Part shown: in pieces, positions 3,784 to 60,955 of the stretch
Position numbering within the stretch: position 1 is the first letter of the stretch
Layout of the letters: every line of letters begins with the position of its first letter
Source of the DNA: Allomyces arbusculus
Lineage: Eukaryota; Blastocladiomycota; Blastocladiomycetes; Blastocladiales; Blastocladiaceae
Direction of reading: 5' to 3'
Assembly (NCBI GenBank): GCA_027604705.1
Contig: JADHYV010000027.1
Location: 186,001-250,000 of the forward strand
DNA: 64,000 nucleotides
Program-made: the position numbers and the translations under genes
The notes under the pieces: generated by a model
What the model was told of the DNA's origin: nothing
Seen by the model: the letters and a program-made list of their open reading frames with translations, nothing else
The model's database searches: none

Positions 3784-5217
3784 ATGCCCTCGCCTTCCAC
3801 TTGTATCCAGCCGCGCTCGACACTCGAGACACTTCCAGAATTAGTCCTCGACGGAATTTTTTACCGCCTGGCGCTCATTGACCGCGCCGGACTCTTGAGC
3901 CTCGCGAGCGCGTCCCCCGCATTCTACGCTCCCGCAATCACTGTTGTTATCCAAACTGCAGGCATGCAGTGGTCCCTATTTGCGAACGGCACAACGGCCA
4001 GTTCGCGGTCCATCACATTGAAGTCTGCCACGACGCATGACCATGTGACACCGGGTGAACTTGGCTTGGATAGCATCAACAAGTCTGTGTATCTCATCGT
4101 TGCCGTCAACGAGGAGTCGGCTCCAGCTCAGGTTACTTTAATTGGCCCAATTGCACCGCGACACTTTCGAAGCGTATTCTTGCACGACGAAATGTTCGAC
4201 CTTGTTGCTACGTCTGCCTTCCCGCGTGCGCACGAAGTGCAATGGAAATTTTATGAACAAGAGCCCGCCCGCATTGCCCTTTCTGAGCTTGAACGTATTG
4301 GCGGGTTTCCGCGCTCTGTGACGAAACTGCACGCGTCTCTGGACAGCAAAATTGTTCAGGGTGTGACCAGATTTGTTGAACGGTTCATTGCTCTCGTTGC
4401 AGTGTCGCACGTCAAGTCTATCTGCGTGTATTTCGACGACGATGACTTGGACCTTACTTACGCCATGACAACGTTGCTCACCAGCGGTTTACCACGGGGT
4501 CTCATGTCGCTTTCAGTGGGTGGCCTCACCAAGTTTGGGGAGGAATTCATTGACGAAACGCTCGCGATTTCGTGGCCCGTGTCGCTCACACATCTCGCAA
4601 TAAACCTTGGGCAAAATGGTGAGAACGAGATTGCATATTTGTGCCGCATTCTCGCGACCATTCCTGGAAACGTACCAGCGCTCCAATCGCTCGAGTTCAC
4701 GTGGGCGAAATTGGCGCACCCTCTCCTCTGCGCCCGGATCGTCGCTTCCCTTGCCCCAACGCTCACGTCGTTTTGCCTGTCGGGATTGGATAATGGCGTG
4801 TTGCTGGAGCACCTGCATTCTGTGATTTCGGAGCTTGCAGCCAAGTGCCATGGACTTCAGAAGCTGCATTTTTCATACGCTTTAAATGCCCAGCGCCAGG
4901 ACATGCTTGCGTTTGCTGATTCTACTGTGCCGTTGCTGCGTTTGCTCCCGCTCACTGAACTTGGATTTGCAGAATTCGGTCTCGATGATACGATGCGCGA
5001 TTGCTCTCGGTTTCTTGCTGCGCTCGTCTCGGCGGTGCCAAGGCTTCAGCGGCTCAACCTGTCGGGGAACGGCCTATTGGGTCCTGTTCTGGCACGACTA
5101 GCGGTGCAGTTGTTCTCAGATCTCCAGCAGCTGAACCTGCGGTCGTCGCTCATCAACGCCAATGATTGCGAGCAGTTCCGTGTCCTGAAGCCGTCGCTGA
5201 AAGTCATTTTGTATTGA
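3784..5217 (+). CDS. F-box-like/leucine-rich-repeat protein, copy 1 (intact)
   Basis: Single exon, 477 residues. This entry defines the family blocks. Residues about 10-50 are F-box-like: LETLPELVLDGIFYRLALID, then LASASPAFYAPAI. Next comes a GELGLD...VYLIVAV strand, then LIGPIAPRHFRSVFL, ELERIGGFPRSVTKL, LTSGLPRGLMSLSVGGL, WPVSLTHLAINLG, IPGNVPALQSLE and LAPTLTSFCL. The end is a clear LRR pair, VPRLQRLNLSGNGLLGP and QQLNLRSS, followed by LKPSLKVILY. No signal peptide or membrane segment is evident. An F-box plus LRRs usually means a substrate adaptor of an SCF ubiquitin ligase; this is inference because the F-box is divergent. Confidence 0.8.
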   Translation: MPSPSTCIQPRSTLETLPELVLDGIFYRLALIDRAGLLSLASASPAFYAPAITVVIQTAGMQWSLFANGTTASSRSITLKSATTHDHVTPGELGLDSINKSVYLIVAVNEESAPAQVTLIGPIAPRHFRSVFLHDEMFDLVATSAFPRAHEVQWKFYEQEPARIALSELERIGGFPRSVTKLHASLDSKIVQGVTRFVERFIALVAVSHVKSICVYFDDDDLDLTYAMTTLLTSGLPRGLMSLSVGGLTKFGEEFIDETLAISWPVSLTHLAINLGQNGENEIAYLCRILATIPGNVPALQSLEFTWAKLAHPLLCARIVASLAPTLTSFCLSGLDNGVLLEHLHSVISELAAKCHGLQKLHFSYALNAQRQDMLAFADSTVPLLRLLPLTELGFAEFGLDDTMRDCSRFLAALVSAVPRLQRLNLSGNGLLGPVLARLAVQLFSDLQQLNLRSSLINANDCEQFRVLKPSLKVILY

Positions 5218-5829
5218 TCCTGTCCATAACATTGCCCTGCCTGATCATTCGTTCATCCATTCATTCTCAATCCTGCCTTGTCGGATATCTCGCTTTCAGC
5301 TCACTTCTGATTGCTTCTGCATTTGGACAAAAATGGGGGGGAGGGGGTTCAATATTGTTCCGTTGGTTCACATTTGCGTGTAGTTTTTGGTTCGAACCGG
5401 TTCTTTTTCCTGTTTAGACCGGCCACACCTGGCCTTGCTGTCACGTTTGATCGAAGTTTGCGTGCTATTTTTCCGTGAACCGAACCTGTTCCACCCGAGC
5501 CTAGTATCGGCAGGCCAGCAAAAAACCTGCCCGTCGCGGTCGGTCATGTTCTGCTGCTGCAGCCGTTCGGACCTGGTCGTTGCATGCTGATCGTGCTGCT
5601 TCGCGCAATGGAGGAAGCATCTTTACGCCCATGCCACGCGCACGCTTGCACCCACATTTCATTTCCAGGGAGAAGTTGCCGTGCGCGGAGGGCCGAGAGT
5701 CGGTGTCCGCGCACGACAGATGGGGGCGCGTGCACGGCCTGACAGCGAGCTACCAGCTGCATCGGCGGAGGCTAAAATGGTTACCGATACTCCAACCGCG
5801 CGACCATGCATGGGCGTCCCCATTGTCAT
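5218..5829. other. Intergenic, between copy 1 and broken copy 2
   Basis: About 600 bp. It has a G-run near 5335-5345 and a pyrimidine-rich stretch; no gene recognised. The 5' part of the following broken copy fades out here: its F-box start cannot be found. Confidence 0.35.
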
Positions 5830-6835
5830 GGTGGACGAGGGTGGCTACCGTTGGCCGCACTGGACTTCTGCAACTCGCGCGGGTATCCCCCACGCTCTAC
5901 GCGCCCGCTATTTCTGTTGCTATCCATACCGCGAGCTCGCAGTGGTCCGGGATTTCCACCCGCACGCGGAAGACCAGCTCGCAACAGGGCAGCATGAAGG
6001 CTGCCACGACTTCCCACGATACGACGCCAGGCCGTCTTGGCTTTGAAGCTGAAACCAAGACAGTCTTCCTCATTACTGCCCTCATCAGAGACTCTGCTCC
6101 AGCTCACATCACCGTGATTGGTCCGATTGAACTGCACCATCTTCGAGCCGTGTCGTTGTCCTACGAGACGGTCACTCTCATTGCCAGTACTGCTTTCCCG
6201 CTTGCACGCGACGTGCGCTGGAGCGTTCAGCATCCGGGGCGCGCTGACATTGCCTTCTCTGAACTCGAGCGCATTGGAGGATTCCCGCATTCCGTGGCAA
6301 CGCTGGATGCGTATTTCAGGAGCAAAGTTGCCCAGGGCGTGACTCGTTTTGCCGAGCGGTCCATTGCTCTCATTACATCATCGCGCGTCAAGTTCCTTTC
6401 CATCCACATCAACGATGTATTTGACCTTGCTCCAGCCATGATGCGGACTCTGCTCGCGAGCGGGTTGCCACAGGGTCTTGTGTCGCTTTCCGTGAGCGGC
6501 CTCCGTGAAATTGACGAGGCATTTGTCGTTGAACATGCCCAAACTGTCAAGTGGCCCGCATCGCTCAAGTACCTTGCACTGGATATTGGGTGTGGCGACG
6601 AGATTGACAGCGCCTATCTGGGCCAAATTCTCTGACTGCGCTTGCAGCGGCGGTGCCAAAGCTCAAGCGGCTCAATCTGTCCAAGAACAAACAGTTGGGT
6701 CTTGAAGTGGCACAGCATACTGTGCAGATACTCCCAGATCTCAAGTATTTGGAGTTGCGGTCGTCGCTTGTCAAGGACAATAGCGAATGTGTGAAGTTTC
6801 GTGCCATCAAACCTTCGCTCACGATCATTTTGTAA
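5830..6835 (+). pseudogene. F-box/LRR copy 2, 5'-truncated with internal deletion
   Basis: Close relative of copy 1. Recognisable from GRTGLLQLARVSPTLYAPAI through VIGPIELHHLRAVSL, ELERIGGFPHSVATL and LLASGLPQGLVSLSVSGL to AYLGQIL near 6633, in one frame. The sequence then jumps to a second frame reading ALAAAVPKLKRLNLSKN and ends FRAIKPSLTIIL. The three or four repeats between these blocks (about 390 bp compared with copy 1) are missing, and the junction is out of frame. The first half of the F-box is replaced by unrelated sequence. No GT-AG pair rescues the join, so I call it a deletion, not an intron. Confidence 0.8.
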
Positions 6836-13895: not shown

Positions 13896-15148
13896 TTACG
13901 AAACGATCTTGAGCGACGGCTTGAGAGCAAGAAGCATAGCGCAATCATGGTCTTTGAAGCCCGACCCACGCACTTTCAAAAACGTGAGATCAGGGAACAA
14001 TTGCACGACCAACCGCGCAAGTCCAGGACTCAGGCGCCGGTTCCTCGACAGATCGAGCCACTGCAACTTGGGCACGGTTGCTGCAAGTGCAGAAATAAAC
14101 CAAGTCGACTGTTTATCCAAGTTGAGACCAATTTGAAGCAGTCCCAGTTCGTTGAGTGGTAGAGCACGCAATAACGGCACCGCCCTTTCGGCAAGCGCGA
14201 TCAGCACAGGACGCGGCAGCTCCGTTTAGAACGACAAATATAACCGGTGCAAACCGACGCACTTGGACGCAAGTGCCGCCACCACGACGTCAATGTGAGG
14301 AATCTTCAAGTCGGTGCCCAGGCTCCATAGGCAAAATGACGTGAGTGTTGGGACCAGCGCGGCGGCGATCTGGTCGCAAAAGCCAGGTCGGGCCAAGTAT
14401 AGGTCCGTGATCTCGAGCGAATGAAGCGCAGGGACATTTCCAGGCATTGTGGCCAGAATATGGGACATGAACATGCTGCCATGCCCCATCCCGCATCCAA
14501 AATCAATGGTGACATGCTTGAGCGATGTGGGCCACCAGATGGTCTAAACGTTGTCCATCTCCAACACATCAACATCACACAACCCCTTCATTGAGAGCGA
14601 TACGAGACCCAGTGGCACACTTGATGGTCAGAGCCAGTTCCGTCGTCTGCAGAAATCCTCCAATGCGCTCAAGGTTATAAAGAGCGGTGCGAGTAATGCC
14701 CTGTTGCTCAAAAGACAAGTTCATTTCGCGCACATGCGAGAAAGTTGCAGCTGTAATCAAGTCGATCGTTTCATCGGTCAAGAAAAATCCTCGAAGGTGA
14801 CAAAGTGCAATCGGGCCCATCACTGCGACCTGCGTGGCTCGAGTTATGACCCCTGCGTACGTCGCTGTGATGAGGTACACCGACTTGGTGACCAAATCAA
14901 AGCCAAGACGACCCGGTGGCTTATGGGAGCGACGGCGTGGTGGTCTTGAAAAGAGGCAGCCACGTCGCGCTGGCGGTATGGATAGCAACTATGATCGCGG
15001 GCGCATAGAGCATGGGCGACGCTCGCGCGAGTTGCAAGAGTCCAGTGCGGTTGGTCCGGGCCAGTTGACGCAGGAGAACCTCGAGAACCACGAGCGCGAG
15101 CGTCTCCAGCGCCGAGTACAATCGCGAATTGGCGGGAGATGTTGACAT
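13896..15148 (-). pseudogene. F-box/LRR copy 3, full-length but broken
   Basis: Reads on the minus strand from ATG 15148: LALVVLEVLLRQLARTNRTG and LLQLARASPMLYAPAI. The frame changes near 14930 to GRLGFDLVTKSVYLITA, VMGPIALCHLRGFFL and NLERIGGFLQTTEL, and ends at in-frame stops around 14570. It resumes at 14489 (HILATMPGNVPALHSLEI, LVPTLTSFCLWSL), stops at 14226, and resumes in 14207-13896 (VPKLQWLDLSRNRRLSPG, LALKPSLKIVS). At least four disruptions. All blocks are in the original order, so decay was by small mutations. Confidence 0.85.
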
Positions 15149-15153
15149 GTTGA

Positions 15154-15361: not shown

Positions 15362-15364
15362 TCA

Positions 15365-16813
15365 ATGACATCGCCTTCAAGAAAAGTACATTTGCGCTCA
15401 GCCATTGAGACACTCCCGTACGAGATTCTCGAGGCTATTCTCCACAGGCTAGCGCGAACCGACCGCTCCGACCTCTTGCGACTTGCGCAAGCGTCGCCTA
15501 TGCTCTACACACCTGCGATTACAGTTGTCATTCATACCGCCAGCGAGAAATGGGCACTGTTTTCCAACTGCTCCGCAGCTGGCTTGCAACACAGCTCAAT
15601 GAAGTATGCCATGACGTACGACCAGGTGACGCCGGGTTCTCTCGGCATTGACACGAATACCAAGTCGGTGCACCTAATCATTGCCGCCGACAAAGGGTTG
15701 GGTCCAAAGCAAGTTACCGTGATTGGTCCCATTGCGCCGCGGCATTTGCGATTCGTCTTCTTGACCAACGAGACGGCAAGCCTTCTCGCCACCGCTTCAT
15801 TCCCATTTCCGCATGCGCACGACGTGCACTGGAGGATTGGCCAACCGGCGCTCGTTCGCATGGCTCTCTCTGATTTCGAGCGTTTTGATGGGTTCCCGCG
15901 CTCTGTGACAAAGCTGGATGTCTGCATCAGCAGCGAAGTTGTCCAAGTAGTCCCCCAGTTTCCTGAACGGTTTGTTGCCCTTATTGCCGCGTCGCATATC
16001 AAGTCCCTTGATTTTGCTCTCCACGACAACGCTCAAATCAATCATGTCATGACTGATTTGTTGACGAGTGGTTTGCCACGACAACTGGTGTCGCTGTCAT
16101 TGAGCGGCTTGCGTGACATCAAGGAACCGCTTGTTGATGGTAAGCTGGCCGTGTCGTGGCCTGCATCGCTCAAGCAGCTTGTCGTCAATCTTGGGTGCGG
16201 CGACAAGTTTGGGAACGCGTACCTACGCCAATTTTTGTCGACAATTCCTGGGAACCTCCCAGCACTCCAATCGCTCGAGGTAAAGTGGGTGGATTTGAAG
16301 CAGCTTGACCTCTGCTCCCAGCTGGCAGCCGCACTGGTCCCAACGCTGACGTCGTTTCGCCTGCTGGAGTTGGACATGGTCGTACACCTGCAACATTTTC
16401 ATCCAGTGGTGGCGGCGCTTGCAAATCAGTGTCCTGGGCTCCAAAGACTGTATTTCTCGTATTTTGACGACTATGGCCCACGTCCTGGTCTTATGGCATT
16501 TACCAAAACGACTGTGCCACTGCTGCGTTTTCTCCCGCTGCTTAACGAACTCGGCCTCAACAACTTTGGGTTTCATTCGTCAACCAACAAGTATGATCCG
16601 CTGTTTACTGCGCTTGCCGGGGCGGCGCCCAAACTTCAGAAGCTCGACCTGTCGCGTAACAGCATGTTGGGCCCCAAGCTGGCTCGGCTTGCTGTGCAGT
16701 TGTTCCTGAATCTCAAGTGTCTAGACCTGCGTTGGTCGAGTGTCAACAGCATTGATTTCGCTAAGCTTCGCGCCATGAAGCCATCGCTTGAGATCATTTC
16801 AATTCAGTTGTGA
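15365..16813 (+). CDS. F-box-like/LRR protein, copy 4 (intact)
   Basis: Single exon, 482 residues, divergent from broken copy 3 with only 216 bp between the two ATGs. F-box-like start: AIETLPYEILEAILHRLART, then LLRLAQASPMLYTPAI. Middle blocks: GSLGIDTNTKSVHLII, VIGPIAPRHLRFVFL, FERFDGFPRSVTKLD, LLTSGLPRQLVSLSLSGL, WPASLKQLVVNLGCGD. C-terminal LRRs: APKLQKLDLSRNSMLGPKL and LKCLDLRWS, ending MKPSLEIISIQL. Closest in the window to copies 1-3, with a similar block spacing. Function unknown beyond the family inference. Confidence 0.8.
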   Translation: MTSPSRKVHLRSAIETLPYEILEAILHRLARTDRSDLLRLAQASPMLYTPAITVVIHTASEKWALFSNCSAAGLQHSSMKYAMTYDQVTPGSLGIDTNTKSVHLIIAADKGLGPKQVTVIGPIAPRHLRFVFLTNETASLLATASFPFPHAHDVHWRIGQPALVRMALSDFERFDGFPRSVTKLDVCISSEVVQVVPQFPERFVALIAASHIKSLDFALHDNAQINHVMTDLLTSGLPRQLVSLSLSGLRDIKEPLVDGKLAVSWPASLKQLVVNLGCGDKFGNAYLRQFLSTIPGNLPALQSLEVKWVDLKQLDLCSQLAAALVPTLTSFRLLELDMVVHLQHFHPVVAALANQCPGLQRLYFSYFDDYGPRPGLMAFTKTTVPLLRFLPLLNELGLNNFGFHSSTNKYDPLFTALAGAAPKLQKLDLSRNSMLGPKLARLAVQLFLNLKCLDLRWSSVNSIDFAKLRAMKPSLEIISIQL

Positions 16814-17321: not shown

Positions 17322-18030
17322 TCACGAAAGGAAGCCGGTTCTGGCTGCTCCACGAATGACAGGATTCTTGAGGTTCATATCCAGACTCGTCACCGTCCCT
17401 GGGTGCCCAATGATGTGCTCGAATTCATAAAGAGCATTCCGCGTGACTGGCCCTTGCGAGATACTCCAGTGCAGGCCATGCACAAAGCGTAGTGCACGCA
17501 TAAGTTTATCGTTTTCGTCAGTCCAGTCAGTGTCTGCAGATGGCGCACCGCCATCATGAGGTACGTACGGGGAGCACGTGAGCTCGTCATAGCCAAGGCG
17601 ACCGGCAAGACTCGCCAAGACATTGCTTGGGTGTTGGGATGCAATTCCTCATGCAGCACATCATGTGTTTGCGGCTCATCCTTGATCAGGCTCCAAAGTC
17701 CAAGGACGTGAGGGCTGGGACGAGCTTAGCAGCAACCCGGATGCAGAGGGGCACATGCGACAGGTCTACGTTCTTGATCACGAGCGATCGAAGCGCTGGA
17801 GAATTGCCAGGAAGAGTCGTCATCACTTTGGCCAAGTATGCGATCCCACCATTATCATTGAGCCCGAAATCCAGTTCGAGCTGTTTGAGCGACAATGGCC
17901 ACGATACAATCTCAACGGCCAGCGTTGCCACGTGTGGAGCGAACTTGAGTCCAAGTCTGATGTGTCGTTTCTCAAGGAATGCTTCCAGCTGCCGTCCCTT
18001 GGCCGACTCGACATGCAGGTTCCCGCACTC
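17322..18030 (-). pseudogene. F-box/LRR remnants, blocks out of order (copy 5)
   Basis: Two family segments on the minus strand in the wrong order. At 17940-17686 lies the middle of the LRR part: WPLSLKQLELDFGLNDNG, LPGNSPALRSLVIKN, LVPALTSLDFGA. Downstream of it, at 17618-17322, lies an earlier block: LAGRLGYDEL, then ALYEFEHIIGHPGTVTSLDM. The order differs from every other copy, so this is either two truncated copies side by side or one rearranged copy. Neither F-box nor C-terminal repeats were found here. Confidence 0.65.
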
Positions 18031-18693: not shown

Positions 18694-20210
18694 TCAGACG
18701 GACCCAGCCAATGACCCTGACCGCGCCTCTGTGCATGTCACCGCGAGAGGTGTCTGGCGGTAACGAGTCAGGTGCACGATGTCGTTCTCACCCACGGCCG
18801 TCCGGGTCAGAACGACCTTCACGATCTTGGGAAGCGCGGCCAAAGCGAGTTCGACCATGCCTGAACCAAGCTCACGATTACCAGAGATGTCGGGTGTCAG
18901 TAAATTTGGCGCCCATCGTGCAATTGCTGCGAAAACCGCGGCCGTATGATTGGACGTGCTCATACCTCACTGAAGCAACTCCATATCGACGAGATTCGGC
19001 AAGTGAACCAAGAGCTGGGCCGTGGACCGTGCAAACGAGCGCGGGTTATTGAAGGAAACGTCGCGGTACATGCCAACATGAATCTTGGCGGGCGTCGGGC
19101 ACTGTTCAATGATCAAGCAGAGAACGTCGTTGAACGAGGTCAAGGTGTCGAAAAAGGGCCCGGGTTGGACGAGCCACAATGTCATGGACGTCAAGGTTGG
19201 TCCAATGAACCCATGAACGCTGTTGCGAAATACGTCATTGACGAGAGGCACGTCCGAGAGGAAGGTGACTTGAGCGGGACGTTGGGCGAGAGCGACGCCA
19301 AGAAACTTGACGCGAAAATGCCAGCACTGCCTCAGCCGGTTCCCACGTCAAATCGTAGTTCTTGGAGCGATGGCAACCAGGTTACTTTCAGGGGCAAGAC
19401 CTCGCCGACGGAGTAAACAGTCAGCTTACGAAGGCCAATCAGGGACAAGGAGCGCAACGATGCCGGCAAACCAAACTTGAGCAGCATGTCCGTCACTTGC
19501 GACAAGTCGCGGATTCCCACATCTGTCCATGAGGCCTCGGCGTCCTTGTGGACATGGTCGTCAGCTCGCAGCTCGAGAGAACGAAGCCGCGACGCTCCCA
19601 AGAGTGTGGCAAGACACTGCGCGACCATGGAACCAGTCACTCCAGACACGGCATTGCATCCGTACCGCATAGAGAGCAATCCGACACTGCCCAGCCCGCC
19701 TACTTGAATGACCGCATCGAGCATGATGCGTGCCACGTCGGGTCCCACATTGTCCACCGCACGGAATGCGCGCACGGAAGCAGTATCGGAACGAGGTCCA
19801 CCGACTCATGGTTGAGGTCAAGCGACCACAAATGACAATACGCAATCGGTCCGAGAATGCGAGTTGGTTGCTGGTCACTGCGGGTGGAGAGGTCGTTTCT
19901 CGGAGACAAAGAGATAGACGGCGGGCAATGCATTGGAACGTGCGGCATATCCCAGAACGCGCTGCTTGCCGCTCAATGCCTGTTAGTCAGCCAGTTCATC
20001 GGTGTCCAGTCGAACCCACGGGACAGGAGCCGTTTGAATGGCGGCGGAGACGACGGGAATGTAAAGAATCGATGAAGTGCGGGCAAACTCGAACAGGGTC
20101 GCGCGGTCATTGATAATGCGGGACAGGACATTATTCAGGGCCAGGTCGGGCAGAGCTTCGAGCAAAGACGTTGGGGGAGGATGTGGATGCAAATTGGTGG
20201 GCGACGCCAT
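18694..20210 (-). pseudogene. F-box/LRR copy 6, full-length but broken
   Basis: From ATG 20210: LLEALPDLALNNVLSRIIND and SSILYIPVVSAAIQTAP, halting at a stop near 19983. The frame then changes to ILGPIAYCHLWSLDLNHESV (19948-19700) and again to LLGASRLRSLELRADDH, LLKFGLPASLRSLSLIGL and WLPSLQELRFDVG (19775-19332). IGPTLTSMTLWLV follows in 19251-18967, and the C-terminal repeat ISGNRELGSGMVELALAALP in 18963-18694. About four or five disruptions, with block order kept. CGCTGCAATCAGC precedes the ATG. Confidence 0.8.
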
Positions 20211-20403: not shown

Positions 20404-21903
20404 TCACGAATACCAAAACACCACATCGAGCGTCGGACGGGTCTGGCGGTAGCACGCGGCCCAAGACTCGTGAATGCCTGTACCTTGCAAAATCAGGCGA
20501 CGCAGCTTGGGCAAGCGCTGGACAATGGGCTCCAGCATATCGGGCTCCAAGCGAAAGTTGTTCATCAAGTCGAGCGAGCACACGTTAGGCACACAAGAAA
20601 TGAGGGCGACAAGCACGGCTGCAGTCCCACGCCCGTGATTCAGCCCAAACGTGAGCAGACCGAAGTCGTCAATCGGCAGCGGCTTCAGGAGCGGCATCGT
20701 ACGGATGGCAAAGCTGAGGAGCTGTCGGGTCGACATGGGCTCAAACGTGCCCAGATGCAACCTGGTCAAGTGCTTGCACGTCGCGGCCGCTTGTTGCACA
20801 AATTTGTGGATGATGGGACCAATCTTGGCAGCGCCAGTGAACGCAATCTTGATTGACGTCAAGTGCGACGAGAAACACCCAAACACGCGCTCCTGGACGG
20901 TCGCAATGTCCATGGGCACATCGAGCAACTGAAGCGAAGACAGACGCACACCCATGCGCTCTGGAATCGTCATGACCGCCGCCGCCGCAAAGTATCCGGG
21001 GCCACCAGTGCCGGAATCGTCACAACTGTCGAACCGCACGCACTTGATCGTTTCCGGCCACGGGACAAAAAACAGCTGAGACTGAGCCGATACGACTGCC
21101 CTCGGGAACATCAAGGGCCCATCAACCATCAGCGACACGAGCTTTGTGGGCATCCCAGCTGTGAGCAACACCTTGGCACGAAGCGCGAGCGTGCCAGAAA
21201 GAGTCGCGTGCGAGCCAAAGAACAGGAGCCGCAGATGCTGGATAGACGACAACTGAAGCATGGCAGCAAGCTGCTTGGTGAAACCGAGCCCGTCTTGACA
21301 ACCCACGGCAGACTGGGAAAGTTTGAGCGTGACCTTGGTCAGCGACGCAGGGAGCCCGCCAACACGCTGGATATCCTCAAGCATGGCGGTTGCGGCATCG
21401 GTTCCCGCGCTCGCGAGGTTCCATGACAAGCTGTACGCATGCGGGAGCACGGAAGGGATAAGCACCGCCGTATCGCGGATCAAGTGCAGCGAGCGGAGGT
21501 GATGCAGCGGGATGGGCCCAATGACGGTGGGCCGGGCATCAGTGGTTTTCGGCTGTTGTTCAGCAACTTCCATGATTAGGTAAACGATCGGCGCAGCGTT
21601 GGCAGGAGCAAGAAAGCCCAAATGGCCAACGTGATCAGCGTTATTCTCATACATATCGTCGGTGCCACTGCACCACACTTGGCCCGATTCGGAGTTGCTG
21701 CACAGACGGCACCAGGGCCCATCGGCGGTGCGGATGGCAGTCCTGATCGCGTCAGCAAAGAACACTGGAGATGCTCGAGCAAAGCGCAACAGCGCTACAC
21801 GGTCGGTTTGCGCAAGACGGCCGAGGATGGTCGATCGGATCACATCAGGTAAAACCTCGAGCTGAAAAGAAGAACCGACGGTGGACGAGGAGGCTGCCAT
21901 CAT
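20404..21903 (-). CDS. F-box-like/LRR protein, copy 7 (intact)
   Basis: Single exon, 499 residues from ATG 21903 (a second ATG follows at 21900). F-box-like block: LEVLPDVIRSTILGRLAQTD, then LLRFARASPVFFADAI. It differs from copies 1-4 by a longer stretch before the GHLGFL strand (CSNSESGQVWCSGTDD). Then VIGPIPLHHLRSLHL, RVGGLPASLTKVTL, LTAGMPTKLVSLMVDG and FSSHLTSIKIAF. The last repeats are weak (VPNVCSLDLMNNFRLEP, LRRLILQGTG), ending TRPTLDVVFWYS. With copy 9 it forms a subgroup that carries a W-C-x-[DL] motif near residue 75. Confidence 0.78.
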   Translation of the reverse strand: MMAASSSTVGSSFQLEVLPDVIRSTILGRLAQTDRVALLRFARASPVFFADAIRTAIRTADGPWCRLCSNSESGQVWCSGTDDMYENNADHVGHLGFLAPANAAPIVYLIMEVAEQQPKTTDARPTVIGPIPLHHLRSLHLIRDTAVLIPSVLPHAYSLSWNLASAGTDAATAMLEDIQRVGGLPASLTKVTLKLSQSAVGCQDGLGFTKQLAAMLQLSSIQHLRLLFFGSHATLSGTLALRAKVLLTAGMPTKLVSLMVDGPLMFPRAVVSAQSQLFFVPWPETIKCVRFDSCDDSGTGGPGYFAAAAVMTIPERMGVRLSSLQLLDVPMDIATVQERVFGCFSSHLTSIKIAFTGAAKIGPIIHKFVQQAAATCKHLTRLHLGTFEPMSTRQLLSFAIRTMPLLKPLPIDDFGLLTFGLNHGRGTAAVLVALISCVPNVCSLDLMNNFRLEPDMLEPIVQRLPKLRRLILQGTGIHESWAACYRQTRPTLDVVFWYS

Positions 21904-21918: not shown

Positions 21919-22199
21919 GGCTTTCGCAAGGCGTTTGGGCAGCCAACTCGCGCTCAGGTGTTGGCCGGCTGTGGAGAGCATCAGTTGAGCATCAGAGATT
22001 CGGTGGTGTTGAAATATGCACGCATGTCCACGTCATTGATTTCATTTCTCCCCACGCCAACGCAAGGCGCACTCTGCAAGCGCACTCTGTGTAAGCGCAC
22101 TCTGCAAGTCGGCCTGAGTCGGACAAGTGCATCAAATGAACGGACAAGCAAGCAGGGGGCATCAGTGGGGCATGTCAGAATTGACCGAACTGACAAGGC

Positions 22200-28559: not shown

Positions 28560-29410
28560 CCCTGCATTCTCACACTTTTTGTCTTCCCCATTCCCGCTGT
28601 CCGCATCCATATCCGCGGCCTTGACCTCCCAGGTCAGCGGCTCCACGAATGTGACTTCGTTTTTTGAGGTGATGCCAAAACGAAGATTGTGGTCGCCAAG
28701 ACTCAAACCTAGCGACGGCACGGCATGGTGGAGATCAAAAAGCAACTTTGAGCGTGGGGTTTGCCGCCTTGGCAACCCGGGAAAAGTAGTCCTGGTCTGG
28801 GTGAAGCACGATCACAACAAGCCACTCCAACCGCTTGAGTGCGAGCACGAGCATGTGAAGCAGGCCAACGTCGATTCAGTCGCTGAGGTACAGGTCAAGC
28901 TAACGGAGATGAGGCAAATTTGCGGCAATCGCGCCGAGAATATCAGCTGTGACCCAGTTTACGTCATCGAACCACCGAGAACCAGCGGTACAGAGCAATT
29001 TCCAACTTGACGAGGGGTGGGCACATTTCTGGGAGAGATTCATTGGGCGTGCAGAGTCCCAATAATGGGCGGCCGAGCCGATCATTCGATGACTTCAGGT
29101 TCCTTGCTAACGCAATCGGAAGGAACACGGTGGGAGCGTGCCCGTCAGCAAATTGGACAAAGCCAAGTCAGCCGAGTGGCCATTGATAGGCATTCGCCCA
29201 GGCGCGACGCGTCTTATTCATCCGCAACCATTGCGTTTCAACCATGCGAATAAGTTTGGCTATGGCCGGTGCAAAGAGAACAGGTGACGTGCGAGCAAAC
29301 GCAATGAGTGTCTCACGGTCGGTGCTTGCGAGATGATCCATGACAACGTCGCGGGCGCCATCGGGCAGTGCTTCGAGCTGAGAAGTACGCGTGGCTGAGG
29401 AAGCACATTG
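28560..29410 (-). pseudogene. F-box/LRR copy 11, internally deleted
   Basis: The F-box part survives at 29410-29230: LEALPDGARDVVMDHLASTD, then LIAFARTSPVLFAPAIAKLI. After it the sequence jumps to the C-terminal repeats (ILGAIAANLPHLR at about 28900, then VAKAANPTLKVAF near 28750). Some 250-280 codons of the middle are missing. A shared GTGCAGAGTCCCAATAATG stretch (29047-29065) ties it to copy 10 (27099-27117). Very short; not a functional gene. Confidence 0.75.
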
Positions 29411-50992: not shown

Positions 50993-52597
50993 TCACATCT
51001 CCACCTTAACGCTCTCTGATTGGGCGGCCGCCGCACGCCGCGCCCGCTGCGCTTGGTGGATCATTGCCGCGAGTTTCTCTTGGCTTTCACGCAATGGTTT
51101 GGTGTTGCCCGTCATGGCCAAACGCCGGAGGTGGCCGTGTTGGACGAGCGGCATGAGCTGATTTACGATGCCATCGTCAATTATATGGTTCCGCGACAAG
51201 TCAAGCACCAGCAAGTTCGGCACAGCGTTGGCCAAGGCGGCCCAAAACGAGTCAACATCGGCTGTCAGGTCCCACGCGACGAGGGCAAGGGTGTTCAAAT
51301 TCGCCAGACCAGAAAGCTCCGGGATCGCATCCCGCGCAAGCACCGTCAGTTCGTTCCGCTCAAAGAGAATCTTGGGCTCGACGTGAAGTGACAGCAGCCG
51401 AGGGCATTTGCTGGCAATCGCCTGGAAGACGGCGCACAAGTGGCGCGCATCCTTGGGGTCAGGACGCCGCGGATAGTATTGCACTAAACGGAGCGTCGTG
51501 AGGGTCGCTGAAAGAGCGGCAACAATTGCGTCCGTCACATCGCGTTGGTCAAAGTTGGCGCCCGTCACATCGAGCGTGACCAGATTTGGCACCTTGGCCA
51601 CCGCCAGCGACGTCAGCAATTGGGCGACAACCACACTCTCGTTGCCATACGAGTTGCCCACCTTGAGGTAGAAATGGCGCAGCGAAACGGGCCACGCGAC
51701 CGTGTACGGCGTAATCACATCACTGCCGTCCAAGTGCGGACCCCACAGCCCGTCGAGCCGCAAGGTTGTCAAACCGGGTGGAAGACCGTGGTTCATGAGC
51801 CATTGCGAGGCGCTGAGCACAAAGGGCTTGTTCCACTCGCGTGAGTAAATCGAAATGTCAAACGACAGACACAAGTCGCGCACACGCGAGTTGGTGAGCA
51901 AGCGCGCCAAGCGACGAATCGGCACGTCTGCACCAGATGCAGCCAGCATTTTGTCGGCAAATTGCGTCTCTGCGGTCGCTAGAGTCTCCGGCAGGCCGCC
52001 CAGCGCATCAATCTCGTCGAGTATCGCCTCGAGCACGTCCAAGTCGTCGAGGCAGCCCAGCATGACACGTTGCGCGCGAGGGAGCACAAGTGAGATGAGA
52101 TCCAATGTGGCATCGGCCAGATACAGCGACCGGAGCTGGTGGAATGGAATCGGGCCAATTGGCCGGTTTGTGATCTGCTGGTTCAATTCGGCGACATGCG
52201 TGGGATCGGTTCGCTTATTCCAGTCGAACACTGTTGGGATCAGGTAGATGCCGCACAGAGAGCGTGCGGGTGGGCCGTACTTCCAGCAGCGCGCGTTGGC
52301 ATCGCCGTCAACACCCATGCCCAAACTCATGACGTGACTCGTTGAATGCCCAAAGTACGCTTGAGGCTGCCCAGTGGCTGGATCTCCAGTGGCTGGATCC
52401 GTGCTGACCAGTGGCCAAGAAGCAGGCGCGGTACGGATCGCCATGGCAATTGCTGGAGCGTAGAAGCGAGGGGACGTGCGCGCGAGCTGGATTAAAGCGA
52501 CGCGGTCATTGTTGGCAAGGAAGAGCAGTATCAAATCGAGAGCACAATCCGGCAACTCTTCGATAATCGAATGCAGGGGCTGCTGGTTCGCGAACAT
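50993..52597 (-). CDS. F-box-like/LRR protein, copy 13 (intact; type A of cluster C)
   Basis: Single exon, 534 residues. F-box-like: IIEELPDCALDLILLFLAN, then LIQLARTSPRFYAPAI. A feature shared only with copy 16 is DPATGQPQAYFGHS...GMGVDGDA before the strand GIYLIPTVFDW. Then PIGPIPFHQLRSLYL, IDALGGLPETLATA, SREWNKPFVLSASQWLMNHG, TTLRLDGLWGP, WPVSLRHFYLKVG, CPRLLSLHVEPKI and the LRR VPNLLVLDLSRNHIID. The C-terminus is a basic helix (MIHQAQRARRAAAA). The codons for DPATGDPATGQP contain a 15-bp tandem duplication (52370-52400) lacking in copy 16. Confidence 0.8.
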   Translation of the reverse strand: MFANQQPLHSIIEELPDCALDLILLFLANNDRVALIQLARTSPRFYAPAIAMAIRTAPASWPLVSTDPATGDPATGQPQAYFGHSTSHVMSLGMGVDGDANARCWKYGPPARSLCGIYLIPTVFDWNKRTDPTHVAELNQQITNRPIGPIPFHQLRSLYLADATLDLISLVLPRAQRVMLGCLDDLDVLEAILDEIDALGGLPETLATAETQFADKMLAASGADVPIRRLARLLTNSRVRDLCLSFDISIYSREWNKPFVLSASQWLMNHGLPPGLTTLRLDGLWGPHLDGSDVITPYTVAWPVSLRHFYLKVGNSYGNESVVVAQLLTSLAVAKVPNLVTLDVTGANFDQRDVTDAIVAALSATLTTLRLVQYYPRRPDPKDARHLCAVFQAIASKCPRLLSLHVEPKILFERNELTVLARDAIPELSGLANLNTLALVAWDLTADVDSFWAALANAVPNLLVLDLSRNHIIDDGIVNQLMPLVQHGHLRRLAMTGNTKPLRESQEKLAAMIHQAQRARRAAAAQSESVKVEM

Positions 52598-52949: not shown

Positions 52950-54640
52950 AACGACAAATTGCCGTGAGAAGCAAGCTGTGAAGCGAGAGAACCTGTTCAA
53001 AGTGCGTGGTGAACATGAAAAACCGCCCACAAAGCCCGTCCTCTCTCCACAGCCGTTACGACAAAATCGACGCTGTGTTACTGCACGCCGCTGGACCTGC
53101 ACCATTACAATTGCTCTGGCAAGCATCCCGCGTTCTCTCTTCAAGAACTGCGTGTCGTCCATATCCATGGGCACGACTTTGCCGCCTTCGACGAGTGCAC
53201 GAACAGCATCGCTGCAGCGACTTTGTCGAGACGGCGGTTCTCGGACAGGCAGAGCCGCTGCGGATTCGGCACGCCCATTCCAAGCCCCAAGATTACATTC
53301 CCATCCATGGCCGACAGCCCCCACCGCCGCATGAACAATCCACGAGATGTAGGAGCACGCGCAGCCGCGGAATCGCATCGCCTGCAGGAATGGCGAGCCT
53401 CGCGCGAAATTGCTGCAGATGCACGCGCAGTTGCTGTGTGAGTACTTGGTAGAGAGCGCCGTCATGATCGTACAGAATTCTCTGCGGATTTCATTGATCC
53501 CGCTGTCGCCATGCCCACATACTGCCCACCGGTTCCAGCGCACTGCACGCGAAACGACTTCAGCAACGAGGGGAGAATCGACACAATGGCGTTGGTAATA
53601 AACGTGGCCGGCATCAGTCGGAACAGTGCGAGGGAAGCGGCGGAACAACGTCAGAGGCAACAAGAATTCGAGATAAACCAAGTACACGTTCCGACTCGAG
53701 CTTGAGGTGACAAAAAGCGAGCGACATGCTGTAACAGTTCGACCACAAGGATCCATCTGGACGCCGCGCACGGACAGCGCCGTCAGCATTGTCGTCGAGA
53801 GCTGCAGCACAATCTCACATGCGGAAAAGCCACACTTGAATGTGGTCTTGTTCGGGAACGAAAGCATGCCACGGGACGTGGTGACCTCGAGAACGCAAAT
53901 CCGCGCTAATGCCATCAGGTTCGTGAGCAGCGTCCACAATGGCACGATTTTCTCGTCGCCCATGCCAAACATCAACTCCGGCACGCAGATGGCCAGCTTG
54001 GTAATCATCCGTGAGAATCTCCCAGTTTGCTCAAGGGCATCGAGGACGCGAAGAGGCGTCACCACCGTGTTGGTAATTATCCAACACACTCGCCAGGCAG
54101 TCTCCAAACGCTCGCCGCTTGCGCGAGCGCATACTCCTCGCAAATGTCAAACCCGTGCAACTGGCGAAATGGAATGAGCCGAATGAGAGTGCAGGTACGG
54201 CCCTGAGCAACAATGCACTCAGGCCATCTCGGATTCTGGTCGAGTTTCTCGACTGGGAGTAAGTAGGACTGCTGGGGCAGAACCAAGTGACAACTTTGAC
54301 GTGGCGAGTGCCAGATCGCAGTAGCCGAGGATGCCCACTTGGTCAGTGTCACCAAAAAGAGTGCCCAGCGGGCGACGTCGACGGCGATCCAAATCCGCGA
54401 GCCGAAACCACGAAAAGGGTGCCGTTTGAATCACGATCCGGATGGCGGCGGCGTAGAACGATGGCGACATACGAGCAAGTTAAAACAGCGCGGTTCGGTC
54501 GACGCAAAATGAGCTGACCCAAGATGTTGACGAGCACGAAGGTTGGAACGGTGTCGAGGCGTGATGGCAGGGCCAGAGCCTGGTCAGCGGGTGCCTTGAT
54601 GTTTGGGCAGTGGGAGCCGCTATGAGAAAACGAGAATGAC
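52950..54640 (-). pseudogene. F-box/LRR copy 14, broken
   Basis: Minus strand from about 54600: LPSRLDTVPTFVLVNILGQL (F-box-like), a frame change, then MSPSFYAAAIRIVIQTAPFS and GILGYCDLAL in 54470-54219. VLDALEQTGRFSRMITKLAI and ARICVLEVTTSRGMLSF lie in 54143-53700. The C-terminal repeat NPQRLCLSENRRLDKVAAA is in yet another frame (53338-53141). At least four disruptions. Less similar to copies 13 and 15 than they are to copies 16 and 17. Confidence 0.7.
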
Positions 54641-54941: not shown

Positions 54942-56483
54942 TCAGGCCGCATCCACAGCAGCCGCAGCAGCACACCGCTTCTGTCGTGCCCTCTTGATCG
55001 CCGCGGCCACCTGGTCGCGCCCGGAACGATCAACAAGCGTTCCAGTCAAGTTGATGCCCACGACGTTTCCGCGCTCAATCAGCGGCAGGAGAAGCGGCAC
55101 GACTTGGCCAGTAATCCAGCGGTTGTTCGACAAATCCAGGCGCCGCAAGTTTGGAACGGCCGTCGCAAGTGCCAGAAACACGGCCTCGCCCGTGGCCATC
55201 ATACCCCACTCACACAGCGAAATGTCCGTGAGGTTCGCGAGGGTACGGAGCCGCGGAATCACGTCTGCCACCACCGCGGTCCGGTCGACAGCGGACACGG
55301 TGCAGCTGGCTGGAAATAGATGCAACCGCTTGAGATTGGGGCATTTGGCCGCGGCGCCATCGATGAGAGCGCGGAAGCGCGCCGCTAGAATGGAATTATT
55401 GGTCGCAACCGGTACAGCCGGAAAAACAGCGCCGACGCAAAGCACCGTCAGCGACGGCCGCAGGACTGCAATAATGGCGTCCACAATAGATACGGATTCG
55501 GCAACGTTATTTAGAACGAGGGCGTCAAGGTGTGGGAGATCGGCGCCAGAGAGCGACACAAGAAGGTTGACCACATGCACGTCGCCAAACCTGGTCTGCA
55601 AATCGAGCTCAATGCACCGCAGAGACGGTGGCCATTGCACGGCATCGTGAGATCCACGAGCCCACCCCTTGGCAAGCTGAATGCGAAGCGTCGTGAGCGT
55701 CGTCTGCGGAAGCCCCTCATCGAGAAACACGCTCGCAACTGGGATCTGGATGGATAAGGGTGGAGGCCATTCAACGGTTGCCATGCTGCGCCATTGGGCG
55801 CGATCTTGCGTGAAGGTCAGGTTACGGATGCGGGATGCGGCAACGAGGCGGGCAAGTCGTGCCACGACAGCTTTCTCGTCGTCTGCCCATGGCTTGGTGT
55901 CTGGTAGAAGCACATCGACATCGGTCACAGCGTCCGGAATCCCACCAGCGAGCGCAATTGCATCAACTAGAGTGCGACTCGCTGTCACGTCTATCTCCCG
56001 CATGGACCACGCGATGCGGCGCACGTGCGGTAGCGTCGCAACCACAAATGACGGCGTAATATTCTGGCCAATGAACAGGCTCCGCAGGTCGCGCCGCGAG
56101 ATTGGTCCAATAGGGTGGTCATCAACGCGTCGTATGTCCGTTGCCGAAAACACACCAACGGATGGGATCAAGTAGACGGAAGTCTCAAGAGGCAATCGCC
56201 AGGTCGTGATGCATGCGCCAAGCGACCCAACGAGTTCCAAGCTGCCGCGACAGGGAGCAGGTCGTCGCGTCTTTGCATCAACTGTGAGCCAGGACCAGTG
56301 GGCAGGCGCAGTTCGGACCGCGGTGCGGATGGCGGATGCGTAGAGAGCGGGCGACGCGCGGGCAAATTGAATGAGCGCAACACGATCCGTGGTGGCGAGA
56401 CGGTCCATAATCACATTGTGAACAACAGTGGGAAGGGCCTCGATCCATGATTGCGGCAAGTTCGGTTGAGCGTTGGCGGCCAT
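54942..56483 (-). CDS. F-box-like/LRR protein, copy 15 (intact; type B of cluster C)
   Basis: Single exon, 513 residues from ATG 56483. F-box-like: WIEALPTVVHNVIMDRLATT, then LIQFARASPALYASAI. Type B marks: GSLELVGSLGACI, VYLIPSVG, PIGPISRRDLRSLFIGQNI, LPHVRRIAW, RLARLVAASRIRNLTFTQDR, WPPSLRCIELDLQ and VPNLRRLDLSNNRWITGQVV. The C-terminus is a basic/Ala helix (AAIKRARQKRCAAAA). Same blocks in the same places as copy 17. The upstream in-frame Met at 56552 is less likely because family similarity starts after 56483. Confidence 0.8.
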   Translation of the reverse strand: MAANAQPNLPQSWIEALPTVVHNVIMDRLATTDRVALIQFARASPALYASAIRTAVRTAPAHWSWLTVDAKTRRPAPCRGSLELVGSLGACITTWRLPLETSVYLIPSVGVFSATDIRRVDDHPIGPISRRDLRSLFIGQNITPSFVVATLPHVRRIAWSMREIDVTASRTLVDAIALAGGIPDAVTDVDVLLPDTKPWADDEKAVVARLARLVAASRIRNLTFTQDRAQWRSMATVEWPPPLSIQIPVASVFLDEGLPQTTLTTLRIQLAKGWARGSHDAVQWPPSLRCIELDLQTRFGDVHVVNLLVSLSGADLPHLDALVLNNVAESVSIVDAIIAVLRPSLTVLCVGAVFPAVPVATNNSILAARFRALIDGAAAKCPNLKRLHLFPASCTVSAVDRTAVVADVIPRLRTLANLTDISLCEWGMMATGEAVFLALATAVPNLRRLDLSNNRWITGQVVPLLLPLIERGNVVGINLTGTLVDRSGRDQVAAAIKRARQKRCAAAAAVDAA

Positions 56484-56838: not shown

Positions 56839-58394
56839 TCAAGCCACTTCCAACGCTCCACACTTGTTCTGAACAGCTGCGGCGCGCCGCACCCACTGCG
56901 CCTGCTGGATCATTGCTGAGGGTTGCACGCGGCCTTCACGGGAAAATATGGTGCCCATCATGGCCAAACGTCGGAGGTGGCCGTGCTGGATGAGCGGCTT
57001 GAGCTGATTCACGACCGCATCGTCGAGGTTCTCGTTCTGCGACAGGTCAAGCACCAGCAGGTGGGGTACAGCGTCGGCCAGGGCGACCCAAAAGGAGTGA
57101 TCGGCAGCCGTTAACTCCCACACAACAAGCACGAGCGTGGTCAGATTCGTCATGGCGCGAAGCATTGGGATCGCGTCGCGCGCAAGTACTGCGAGTTCAT
57201 TGCGTTCAAAAAAGAATCTTGGGCTCGACGTGGAGCGACTGAAGCTGAGGGCACTTGTCGGCAATCGCATGGAATACAGGGCAGACGTGTTCCGTATCGT
57301 TGGGTTTGGGGCGCCGTGGGTAATATTGTGCCAAAAGGAGCGTCGCGAGAGTCGCAGGAAGAGCCGCAGCGATCGCGTCCGCGACTATTGATGAGCCAAA
57401 GTTGGCGCCCGTCACATCAAGCGTGACCAATTTCAGGACCTTGGCCGCCACTAGCGATGTCAGCGGCTGCGCGACGACGACGCTCTCGTTCCCATACTCG
57501 TGGCCTAAGTTGAGATACAAATGGCGCAGCGAGACTGGCCACGCGACCGTGTTTGGCGGAATTTCCTCGCCACCGCCAATGTACGGACCCCACAGCCAGT
57601 TGAGCCTCAGCGTCTTCAGCCCGCGCGGGAGACCGTGGTTCATGAGCCATTGCGAAGCGCGGAGCACAGCGGGCTTGTTCCACTCGCGCGAGCGAAGCGA
57701 AACGTCGAACGAAACGCACAACTCGCGCACATTGGATTTCCCCAGGACGCGCGCCAAGCGACGAATGGCCGCGTCGGTCCCCGTTTCAACGATCACCTCG
57801 TCAGTGAAATACATGCCCATTGTAGACAGACTCGTTGGAAGAGGAGAAAAGAGGGCAACTTCGTCGAGTATCGCCTCGAACACGTCCAAGCCGTCAAGAG
57901 AGCCCAAAGTGGCTAGCTGCGCCCGCGGGAGCACAGTCGAGATGAGGTCCAGCGTGGAATGAGCCAGATAGAGAGACCGAAACTGATGGAATGGGATCGA
58001 TCCAAGCGCGCGGTTTGCAGGCTGCTGGTTCATTTCGGCAACATACCCGCGATCATCTTGCCTTTCCAGTCGAGCACGGCTGGGATCAGGATTATGCCGC
58101 GCTTGGTGCGCGCAGGTGGGCCGTACGTCCAGTAGAAGGCGGTGGCATCCCCGTCAACGCCCATCCCCAAACACATGACGTGACTTGAATGTCCCAGGTA
58201 CGCTGGAGGCTGCCCCGTAGCTGGATCCGTGCTGATCAGCGGCCAAAACGCAGGCGCAGCCCGGATCACCAAAGCAATTGCTGGAACGTGGAGGCGAGGG
58301 GACGCGCGCGCGAGCTGATCAGAGCAGCGCGGTCAATGTTGTCGAGGAAATGCAGCGTCGCGTCAAGAGCATGATCCGGCAACTTCTCAAGCAT
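56839..58394 (-). pseudogene. F-box/LRR copy 16, recently broken twin of copy 13
   Basis: From ATG 58394: MLEKLPDHALDATLHFLDNI, then frame change. 58272-58030 gives STDPATGQPPAYLGHS and GMGVDGDATAFYW, near-identical in layout to copy 13, then a stop. 58033-57206 is one long frame (SIPFHQFRSLYL, SREWNKPAVLRASQWLMNHG, WPVSLRHLYLNLG, QSLHVEPKILF). After a last frame change near 57210, 57270-56839 has FERNELAVLARDAIPML and VPHLLVLDLSQNENLDD to the end. Only about three disruptions in about 1.55 kb, so inactivation is younger than in the other broken copies. Confidence 0.88.
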
Positions 58395-59362
58395 CGACAG
58401 GAGCGCTTGGTGCGTGGTCGCGAGTATGGCCGACTTTCCGACGTGCGAATGAATGAAGCTGTGGCGGTGATGGTGCTGGCAGCAGCGTGGACGAGCGTAG
58501 ACAAGAGGGTGGACTGTGTTGCGGTGGTGACGGTCAGAGATGAAAGATGCAGGTAGAGCGTGCGCTTTGGCAGAGCCCAACATAGAGGGCCGAAAATCGA
58601 CGGCGATACAAGTGGACCTGGACTTTGCTGCCACATAGATTTGGATGTGATGAAGCAAGCGGAGCCAAAACAACATGAGCATGATTGGTAACATCCAACT
58701 GCCGGTTTCCTGTCAGGCACCACCATCAGAACACGCTCGGCGCTGCTGCTGCTCTTTGTCGCCGCCACCACGACCGTGAAGAATTACCTCGGCGTTTTTT
58801 TAAGGCGTCGCTGCTCTGGTCACACAATCAAAGATGCCAGCAATGTCAATTGCAACAAAAGAGGGAGCGACGTCATATGCAACAATTGAGGGAAGCAGGG
58901 CCTTCACAATTGTCTAGCGATCCGCCTGTATCAATTATCACAGCAGAGCGAGCTGGAGGACAACTCTGGCGGCAAACAAAAAGTACTCAGCAAAAAACTG
59001 CTCAAAATAAGGTGCGGAAAGGGTCATGATGCAGGAACCGAGATCACCGACTGAATCACTGACCGCGTCAATTTTCCTCCACTTTGTGGAAAGTTGTTGC
59101 GTAACAAAAAAAACAAAAATACTATTCTCTTGTCGTGGGCTGGCCTGCGATGGTGCAATGCCAGCCGCCACCTAGTGGAGACAGGGCTTGTGCGAAAATG
59201 TTCAAGCCAAACATGGAGCGCAACAGGCGATCCTCCTGTCTGCATGAGTGACTTGGTGGGTTGCAAATGTGTAGCCTTGGATTTCAGCGTTGTGACAATG
59301 ATGAATTGCTCTGAACCATGGACAAAGACCAAGAAATGCAGCTCACATCCAGTTCATTCGTG
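58395..59362. other. 0.97-kb intergenic between copies 16 and 17
   Basis: No gene or family block recognised; AT-richer than its surroundings, with A runs near 58970-59000 and 59104-59120. Confidence 0.4.
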
Positions 59363-60955
59363 TCACGACGTATCCGCAACCGAGGCCATGCACCGATTCT
59401 GCCTTGCCGTGTTAATTGCTGCGGTCACCCGGTTGCGCCCAGAACGATCGATCAGCGTCTCGTTCAAATCAATGTTCACAATTGTCCCACGCTTGATCAG
59501 CCGCAAAAGAAACGGCACGACTCTGCGTGTGAGGCAGCGGTTCTTCGACATGTCCAGGCGCTGCAGGTTTGGGACGACCGCGAGCGCCGAATACACGGCC
59601 TTGTCCGTGGCCACCACACCCCATTCGCGAAGCGAAAAGTCTGTGAGGTTTGGGAGATTGCGGAGCCGCGGGAGCACGTTCACAGCAAGCGCGCGACGGT
59701 CGATGGCAGGCACGTCGCGGTCAACCGGGAAAAAGTGCAGTTGCTTGAGATTGGGGGATTTGGCCGCGAGCCCATCAATGAGAGTACAGAGACGAAAAGC
59801 CAAAATGGACGCAATGCCTACGTCCACATCATTTCCACGAGCAGCACCAAAACGAAGATCTACCAGAGACGGACGAAAGACGGAAATCATGGCGGATGTG
59901 ACAGATTCGGACAGGGGCACACGGTTCAGGGTGAGCGTGTCGAGGAGCGGGAGTTTGGAACGAGCGAGGGAGGCAAATAATTGAGCCACTTGAGTTTCAC
60001 AAACGCTATCCTGCAAATCGAGATCAATGCAGCGCAGAGACGATGGCCACGGCACGCAATCTTGTAACCCATGAGCCCATTGCTCTGCGAGATGAATGCG
60101 GAGCGTCATGAGCGTCAACTGGGGTAGCCCAAGTTCCAAAAATGTCTTCGCGATTGGGATACGAATGGGGGGAAATGAAGACCATTCAAAGTCGGTTGCG
60201 GTGCGCTGTGGGGGGCGATCATGCGTGAGCGTCAAATGGCGGACGCGGGATGCTGCAACGAGACGAGCAAGTCGGTCCACGATAGTCGTCTCGCCGACGC
60301 CAGCGTCGGTGCCAGCCCAAGACTTCGTATCGAGCACGCGCACATCAAAGTCGGTTACGGAGGCCGGAAATCCACCAGTACTCTCAATCGCATCGACCAA
60401 AGCGCGGCTCTTTATGATATCCAAATCCTGCAGGCACCACGCAATGCGACGCACGTGCGGTAGCGTCGTGAGCACAAACGATGACACAATGTTCTGGCCA
60501 ATATGCAGGCTACGAAGATCGCGGTACGAGATTGGGCCAATAGGACGGTCGTCACGTCGCGTATCCGCGCAAGTCCAGTTCAGGCCACCAGACTTCGTGT
60601 TGGTCCAATACCGGCAGACTGCTGGGATCAAGAACACGGCCGTTTCGGGCGGCGAACTTCCTGGCTTGAAGCACGCGCCGAGGGACCCAATTAGGCTCAA
60701 TTCACCACGGCAAACAGCGGGTCGCTGTGTTGCAGGATCGACCGTGAGCCATGTCCAGATGGCAGGTGCAGTGCGAATTGCAGTGCGGATGGCGTTGGCG
60801 AAGAAAGCGGGTGACGTGCGGGCCAGTTGAATGAGCGAGGATCGATCGGAGGTGGCGAGATATCCCAGGATCACGTTGTGAACGACGGTGGGTAGAGCTT
60901 CGATCGATGCCAGCTCGTGCGATGGGTTCTGCTGAGCGTTGACAAATGCCATCAT
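59363..60955 (-). CDS. F-box-like/LRR protein, copy 17 (intact; type B of cluster C)
   Basis: Single exon, 530 residues from ATG 60955 (or 60952). Closely follows copy 15: SIEALPTVVHNVILGYLATS, then LIQLARTSPAFFANAI, GELSLIGSLGACF, PIGPISYRDLRSLHIGQNI, LPHVRRIAW, RLARLVAASRVRHLTLTHDR, WPSSLRCIDLDLQ, LPNLTDFSLREWGVVAT and VPNLQRLDMSKNRCLTRRV. It has an extra stretch after VCRYWTNTKSGG. C-terminus AAINTARQNRCMASVA. With copy 15 it forms the best pair of intact paralogues for dating the duplication. Confidence 0.82.
   Translation of the reverse strand: MMAFVNAQQNPSHELASIEALPTVVHNVILGYLATSDRSSLIQLARTSPAFFANAIRTAIRTAPAIWTWLTVDPATQRPAVCRGELSLIGSLGACFKPGSSPPETAVFLIPAVCRYWTNTKSGGLNWTCADTRRDDRPIGPISYRDLRSLHIGQNIVSSFVLTTLPHVRRIAWCLQDLDIIKSRALVDAIESTGGFPASVTDFDVRVLDTKSWAGTDAGVGETTIVDRLARLVAASRVRHLTLTHDRPPQRTATDFEWSSFPPIRIPIAKTFLELGLPQLTLMTLRIHLAEQWAHGLQDCVPWPSSLRCIDLDLQDSVCETQVAQLFASLARSKLPLLDTLTLNRVPLSESVTSAMISVFRPSLVDLRFGAARGNDVDVGIASILAFRLCTLIDGLAAKSPNLKQLHFFPVDRDVPAIDRRALAVNVLPRLRNLPNLTDFSLREWGVVATDKAVYSALAVVPNLQRLDMSKNRCLTRRVVPFLLRLIKRGTIVNIDLNETLIDRSGRNRVTAAINTARQNRCMASVADTS

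Follow-up and report, generated by a model that had tools for sequence, protein, structure and literature searches.

What are the related single-exon genes that recur along a 64,000-nucleotide stretch of the Allomyces arbusculus genome (assembly GCA_027604705.1, contig JADHYV010000027.1, positions 186,001 to 250,000 of the forward strand), and what might their products do? This whole stretch is referred to here as the window, and all coordinates are counted from its first base. The genes likely form a lineage-specific family of the FBXL type, in which an F-box-like N-terminus is followed by leucine-rich repeats (LRRs). The proteins are most simply explained as substrate receptors of SCF (SKP1-cullin-F-box) ubiquitin ligases that arose by old tandem duplication accompanied by decay.

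The core of the family is a set of eight full-length intact open reading frames (ORFs) of 486-534 amino acids, which are homologous along their whole length and share 25-58% pairwise identity, counted on profile columns. A profile built from these eight copies has been run on all six frames of the window; its 39 matches comprise the eight intact copies plus 31 other pieces. By order and strand, the pieces have been assigned to nine decayed loci. The best piece of every decayed locus has an E-value (E) of 3.6e-12 or lower, while weak scores (E 0.0018-0.0091) are limited to five of the 31. Profiles made from seven copies recover the eighth at E 8e-96 to 2e-126, and neither 20 shuffled windows (first-order resampled) nor the reversed window yields anything below E 0.01, the lowest values being 0.24 and 0.41, respectively. 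The six-frame search, the end-to-end alignment and these controls bear out the 17 members, eight intact and nine decayed, proposed in the first-pass annotation. The same annotation had the family filling about half of the window; the copies as bounded cover 22,271 bases, or 34.8%. They lie in three clusters, as follows.

3784..5217, forward strand: intact copy A; the family start methionine is at 3784 and an ORF start is possible at 3697.
5838..6829, forward strand: decayed copy p1; by profile positions, about 120 repeat residues are missing, as is the initial half of the F-box-like start.
13902..15145, reverse strand: decayed copy p2, with deletions and frame breaks.
15365..16813, forward strand: intact copy B; an ORF start is possible at 15284; the sole full-length copy with a Pfam F-box-like match (E 0.006, below the cut-off).
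17346..17910, reverse strand: decayed copy p3, a remnant of about 70 repeat residues and a weak out-of-order piece.
18742..20177, reverse strand: decayed copy p4, split into five pieces over three frames.
20404..21900, reverse strand: intact copy C; the ORF extends to 21981.
22179..23751, reverse strand: decayed copy p5, three pieces, the last one weak (E 0.0038).
24731..26191, reverse strand: intact copy D, with an AlphaFold2 model (predicted local distance difference test, pLDDT, 86.8).
26713..28080, reverse strand: decayed copy p6, split into seven pieces over three frames, of which one is weak.
28716..29398, reverse strand: decayed copy p7, of which the F-box-like start is left at 29207-29398 and a remnant of the C-terminus at 28716-28976, the latter 67% identical in DNA to the end of p6.
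29675..31177, reverse strand: intact copy E, from the profile match and whole-length alignment.
50993..52597, reverse strand: intact copy F, with an AlphaFold2 model (pLDDT 78.4).
53204..54479, reverse strand: decayed copy p8, in three pieces of which two match weakly (E 0.0018 and 0.0032).
54942..56483, reverse strand: intact copy G, from the profile match and whole-length alignment.
56869..58409, reverse strand: decayed copy p9, nearly full length, with three single-base frame breaks and 75% DNA identity to copy F.
59363..60955, reverse strand: intact copy H, from the profile match and whole-length alignment.

The tail of p7 (28716-28976) has been added from a DNA self-comparison and not from the profile, and the two pieces of the p3 locus (17346) stand out of order. 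All eight intact copies end in the same stop codon, TGA (at 5217, 16813, 20404, 24731, 29675, 50993, 54942 and 59363).

The fold of the proteins has been modelled for two of the eight intact copies, D and F. The copy D model (10-row alignment; predicted template modelling score 0.86) begins with three helices (19-32, 34-43 and 45-57), followed by a stretch of short strands to about 130, partly of low confidence (pLDDT below 50 at 109-117). Strand-helix repeats come next, with strands beginning at 133, 153, 184, 217, 251, 282, 311, 338, 369, 402, 432, 458 and 482. These make up 12-13 leucine-rich repeats of the ribonuclease-inhibitor kind, and an LxxLxL-like pattern is present in most of them. 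The copy F model keeps this order of elements at lower confidence. The conserved GPI block, which had been noted as part of the combination without a family name, can be placed: it is read as the entry to the solenoid because it is located just before the first LRSLxL strand in the model. The VPxLQxLDLSRN block had been described as the final one; in both the alignment and the model, more repeat sequence comes after it. No clear secretion or membrane insertion signal has been found by a crude hydropathy test (19-residue maxima 1.3-2.1; 10-residue maxima within the first 40 residues -0.6 to 2.7).

Foldseek comparison of the whole chains with the Protein Data Bank (PDB) places the models near SKP1-bound F-box proteins. 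For copy D, 12 of the 50 listed rows are F-box/LRR proteins bound to SKP1 or ASK1 (SKP2, FBXL2, FBXL17, Dia2 and MAX2/D3), and for copy F the number is 10 of 50, the top row being COI1-ASK1 (E 3.3e-07). Rows have been classed by title, by length or, for 6wcq, by its name from the PDB sequence search; 4i6j is counted on our assumption that it is an SKP1-bound F-box/LRR entry. SKP2, FBXL2, FBXL17, COI1 and TIR1 stand among the top structural matches, interspersed with ribonuclease inhibitor and NLRP repeats. A viral structure library gives 44 matches at E <= 0.001, mostly to giant-virus F-box and LRR proteins, which are taken as a resemblance of fold only.

At the sequence level, the F-box-like stretch is the most conserved part of the family, with a mean entropy of 1.23 compared with 1.66-1.83 in four other stretches, and carries the motif LP..L..I..L...DR..L..LARASP. 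When 12 N-termini are compared with Pfam up to E 10, F-box is matched in two (best E 0.019), F-box-like in one (E 0.0003), bpX1 in two (E 0.12) and RskA_N in one (E 0.048), so that F-box-like is the strongest match overall. Among the full copies, B matches F-box-like (E 0.006) and G matches LRR_4 (E 4.7e-05), both below the cut-off. A PDB profile search matches the repeats, and among the best 60 of its 71 matches NLRP1 is at the top (E 4e-06), followed by FBXL17, ribonuclease inhibitor and TIR1. We infer SKP1 binding, ubiquitin ligase activity and the binding of substrates: the three N-terminal helices would dock on SKP1 within an SCF ubiquitin ligase, and a substrate for ubiquitylation would be held by the curved solenoid of repeats.

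The history of the family has been read from the copies themselves. By tree and identities, A, B, p1, p2 and p3 are grouped (support 1.0), as are F, p9, G, H and p8 (support 1.0), which are all of the third cluster. F is further paired with p9 and G with H; the pairing of D with p5 is less firm, and the remaining nodes are weak. The groups largely track position, as tandem duplication would predict. The ratio of nonsynonymous to synonymous divergence (omega) is 0.32 (0.24-0.40) for A/B, 0.37 (0.29-0.48) for G/H and 0.29 (0.20-0.40; 270 codons of p9) for F/p9, and spans 0.25-0.45 over the nine pairs measured. Among 23 windows of 60 codons in A/B, G/H and F/G, which leave the final codons of each pair outside, none of the 22 computable ones has omega above 1. 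Neutral evolution simulated 200 times at 0.3 substitutions per site adds a mean of 7.65 stops to a copy and never fewer than one. Since neutral copies always gain stops in these simulations, pairs in which both members are still open point to constraint. Selection on the intact copies is purifying.

The decayed copies show a different pattern of gaps. Gap alignment at the DNA level, covering three of the nine decayed copies and the intact pairs A/B and G/H, gives gaps that are not multiples of three in one of nine, four of ten and three of six cases in p1, p2 and p9, respectively, whereas all 12 gaps in the intact pairs are multiples of three. Introns have been considered as the source of the frame breaks in p1, p2 and p9 and rejected, because the aligned lengths are too short for an intron-length insert. 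The three breaks in p9 are single-base gaps, one of them near a run of six identical bases where an assembly error is possible. As omega for the F/p9 pair is low, the breakage of p9 may well be recent.

The duplications themselves are old. Synonymous divergence (dS) is at least 0.76 in the nine pairs (about 0.76 in the closest), with A/B and F/G close to saturation. Over long stretches, DNA identity between copies peaks at 74.5% (1547 columns), with shorter pieces up to 81%, and recent duplication has been rejected on these identities. Birth-and-death evolution, as the family's history had been described, is supported, with a turnover that appears slow.

The strongest alternative, which is compatible with the FBXL reading, is that expansion and decay proceeded by genomic drift, largely without an adaptive driver, and that many intact copies are weakly expressed and dispensable. 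We give this somewhat less than an even chance. Half of the copies are decayed, and the GC content at third codon positions (GC3) of the eight intact genes is 0.58-0.70, compared with 0.71-0.88 in 17 of the 18 Pfam-matched neighbouring ORFs (the PAP2 ORF has 0.66), which would fit drift if low GC3 reflects low expression. Drift has also been described for plant F-box genes (PMC3030570). On the other hand, the intact ORFs have stayed open, their omega is well below 1, and the intact pairs A/B and G/H have accumulated only frame-preserving indels at dS 0.86-1.16.

A second alternative questions the F-box itself. Here, the family would be an LRR scaffold whose three-helix N-terminal cap is merely F-box-like, does not bind SKP1 and serves another protein-protein role. 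Several results weigh against the FBXL reading and favour this one. None of the eight full copies reaches the Pfam cut-off for F-box or LRR: copy B matches F-box-like at 16.7 bits against a cut-off of 24.3, the other seven have no F-box match, and the LRR_4 match of copy G is likewise too weak. A consensus of the family N-terminus, tried as a way to sharpen the match, brings no gain (E 0.12 for F-box), and PDB searches with the N-terminal profile and with single sequences return no F-box protein. In the structural comparison, NLRP, NLRC4 and ribonuclease inhibitor chains take the first six rows for copy D, and F-box/LRR proteins enter at row seven. The F-box rows have template modelling scores of 0.21-0.56, which are whole-chain scores that do not isolate the N-terminus, and ribonuclease inhibitor, NLRP and axonemal LRR chains fit as well or better. 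Still, the scaffold reading seems unlikely, given that the N-terminus with its LP..L and DR signature is the most conserved part of the protein and that F-box-like is its best Pfam match. The F-box-like/LRR description of the first-pass annotation is supported by the predicted fold and weakly by sequence; the LRR assignment is secure, and the F-box assignment is probable, not proven. The family had also been regarded as one that cannot be named; this agrees with Pfam, whose models all stay below their cut-offs on the full copies, but the proteins otherwise resemble the FBXL kind.

The remaining alternatives concern recognition of variable targets, a role suggested early on. Concave and helix positions of the repeats have been set from the model. 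The mean entropy of the 36 concave positions is 2.08, compared with 2.14 for 61 polar helix positions (p 0.70) and 1.89 for all 133 helix positions (p 0.05, a borderline excess). Differing sites on the concave face and the polar helix number 24/36 and 36/61 for A/B, 16/36 and 32/55 for G/H, 29/36 and 45/56 for F/G, and 30/36 and 46/55 for F/H. With the omega range and the codon windows above, these numbers do not sustain the suggested role: diversifying selection on the LRR face shows no clear sign, and neither a hypervariable binding face nor a recognition arms race is clearly supported, at the limited power of eight old paralogues from a single window with no population series. It is improbable that this undescribed lineage-specific F-box/LRR family of an early-diverging fungus serves allorecognition or defence through ubiquitylation of foreign proteins, in parallel with the F-box expansions of plants and nematodes. 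Marginally less probable again is a family resembling the nucleotide-binding LRR receptors (NLRs), or another self/non-self system, with diversifying selection on the concave face. In its favour are the clusters with many decayed copies, the LRR solenoid, the low identity among most copies, the borderline concave excess and the A/B counts. Against it are low omega throughout, a concave face that does not exceed the polar helix positions in variability, fewer concave differences in G/H, and the Pfam matches of the eight intact copies, which up to E 10 include no NACHT, NB-ARC or other output domain, although the HMMER filters drop most matches above 0.1.

Among known systems, the FBXL proteins (SKP2, FBXL2, FBXL17 and yeast Dia2) are the closest to the FBXL-type family proposed here, with a helical N-terminus followed by a ribonuclease-inhibitor-like LRR solenoid. 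They differ in that the F-box of the present family is below the Pfam cut-off, identity in the Foldseek alignments is 10-16%, and the sequence match to FBXL17 (E 6e-05) covers the repeats, leaving the F-box part without one. Of the plant hormone receptors COI1 and TIR1, COI1 (with ASK1) provides the top structural row of copy F, and in their F-box, as in the family, an Asp-Arg pair opens the second helix. A hormone pocket or inositol phosphate cofactor is without support in the family.

Comparable expansions have been described elsewhere. For the plant F-box superfamily, Hua et al. (2011, PMC3030570) describe lineage-specific duplication, a relaxation of purifying selection and numerous pseudogenes. 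These traits are shared, but the Allomyces family belongs to another kingdom and consists of old duplicates of one family in one region. The Parachlamydiaceae have F-box and BTB families that expanded by birth and death and are related to ubiquitination (Domman et al. 2014, PMC4209131); they differ in being proposed bacterial effectors. Pattern searches with three of the 17 copies in viral (39 matches) and genome (47 matches) contig collections returned no relative, the collections being viral and prokaryotic with little bearing on eukaryotes. A search of the viral contigs with copy F confirmed one stretch and returned no distinct locus. No description of the family has been found in the literature searched, with most subscription papers and supplements outside the reach of that search.

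Pfam matches have been obtained for 18 of the 20 neighbouring ORFs scanned (82-1008 and 12714-13382 have none) and include eIF3b, MAM33, FIBP, SHQ1, inositol-pentakisphosphate 2-kinase, an RRM protein, cytochrome P450, PAP2, TRIC channel (43213-44103, reverse strand, E 2e-06), class I DAHP synthase, EMC3, pyroglutamyl peptidase, and a BSD-domain protein adjoining a weak TFIIH p62 match. Among solved structures, the eIF3b ORF is closest to the fungal protein 4nox (E 2e-145) and the EMC3 ORF to the human 6ww7_C (E 1.5e-16). With FIBP and TRIC also among the neighbours, an early-diverging fungus would be the likeliest source. The DAHP synthase gene has an 80-base candidate intron and some neighbours seem to have short introns; the eight intact family genes all read through without one. 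A 900-codon ORF (7157-9859, forward strand) lies opposite the eIF3b gene (7247-9496, reverse strand) and is probably a codon-bias effect rather than a gene, its GC3 being 0.61 compared with 0.87 for eIF3b. A promoter motif common to the family genes has been rejected: upstream of them, no 8-mer is shared by more than two of the eight regions, and random sets of eight reached two to four. The upstream stretches of G and H (56518-56564 and 61003-61051) share about 49 columns at 82% identity, outside the coding match.

If the F-box assignment is right, the family adds a divergent F-box/LRR branch that scores below Pfam cut-offs, with intact and decayed copies side by side, and such families may be under-annotated. 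A role in recognition, if shown by expression or population data, would raise the importance of the family.

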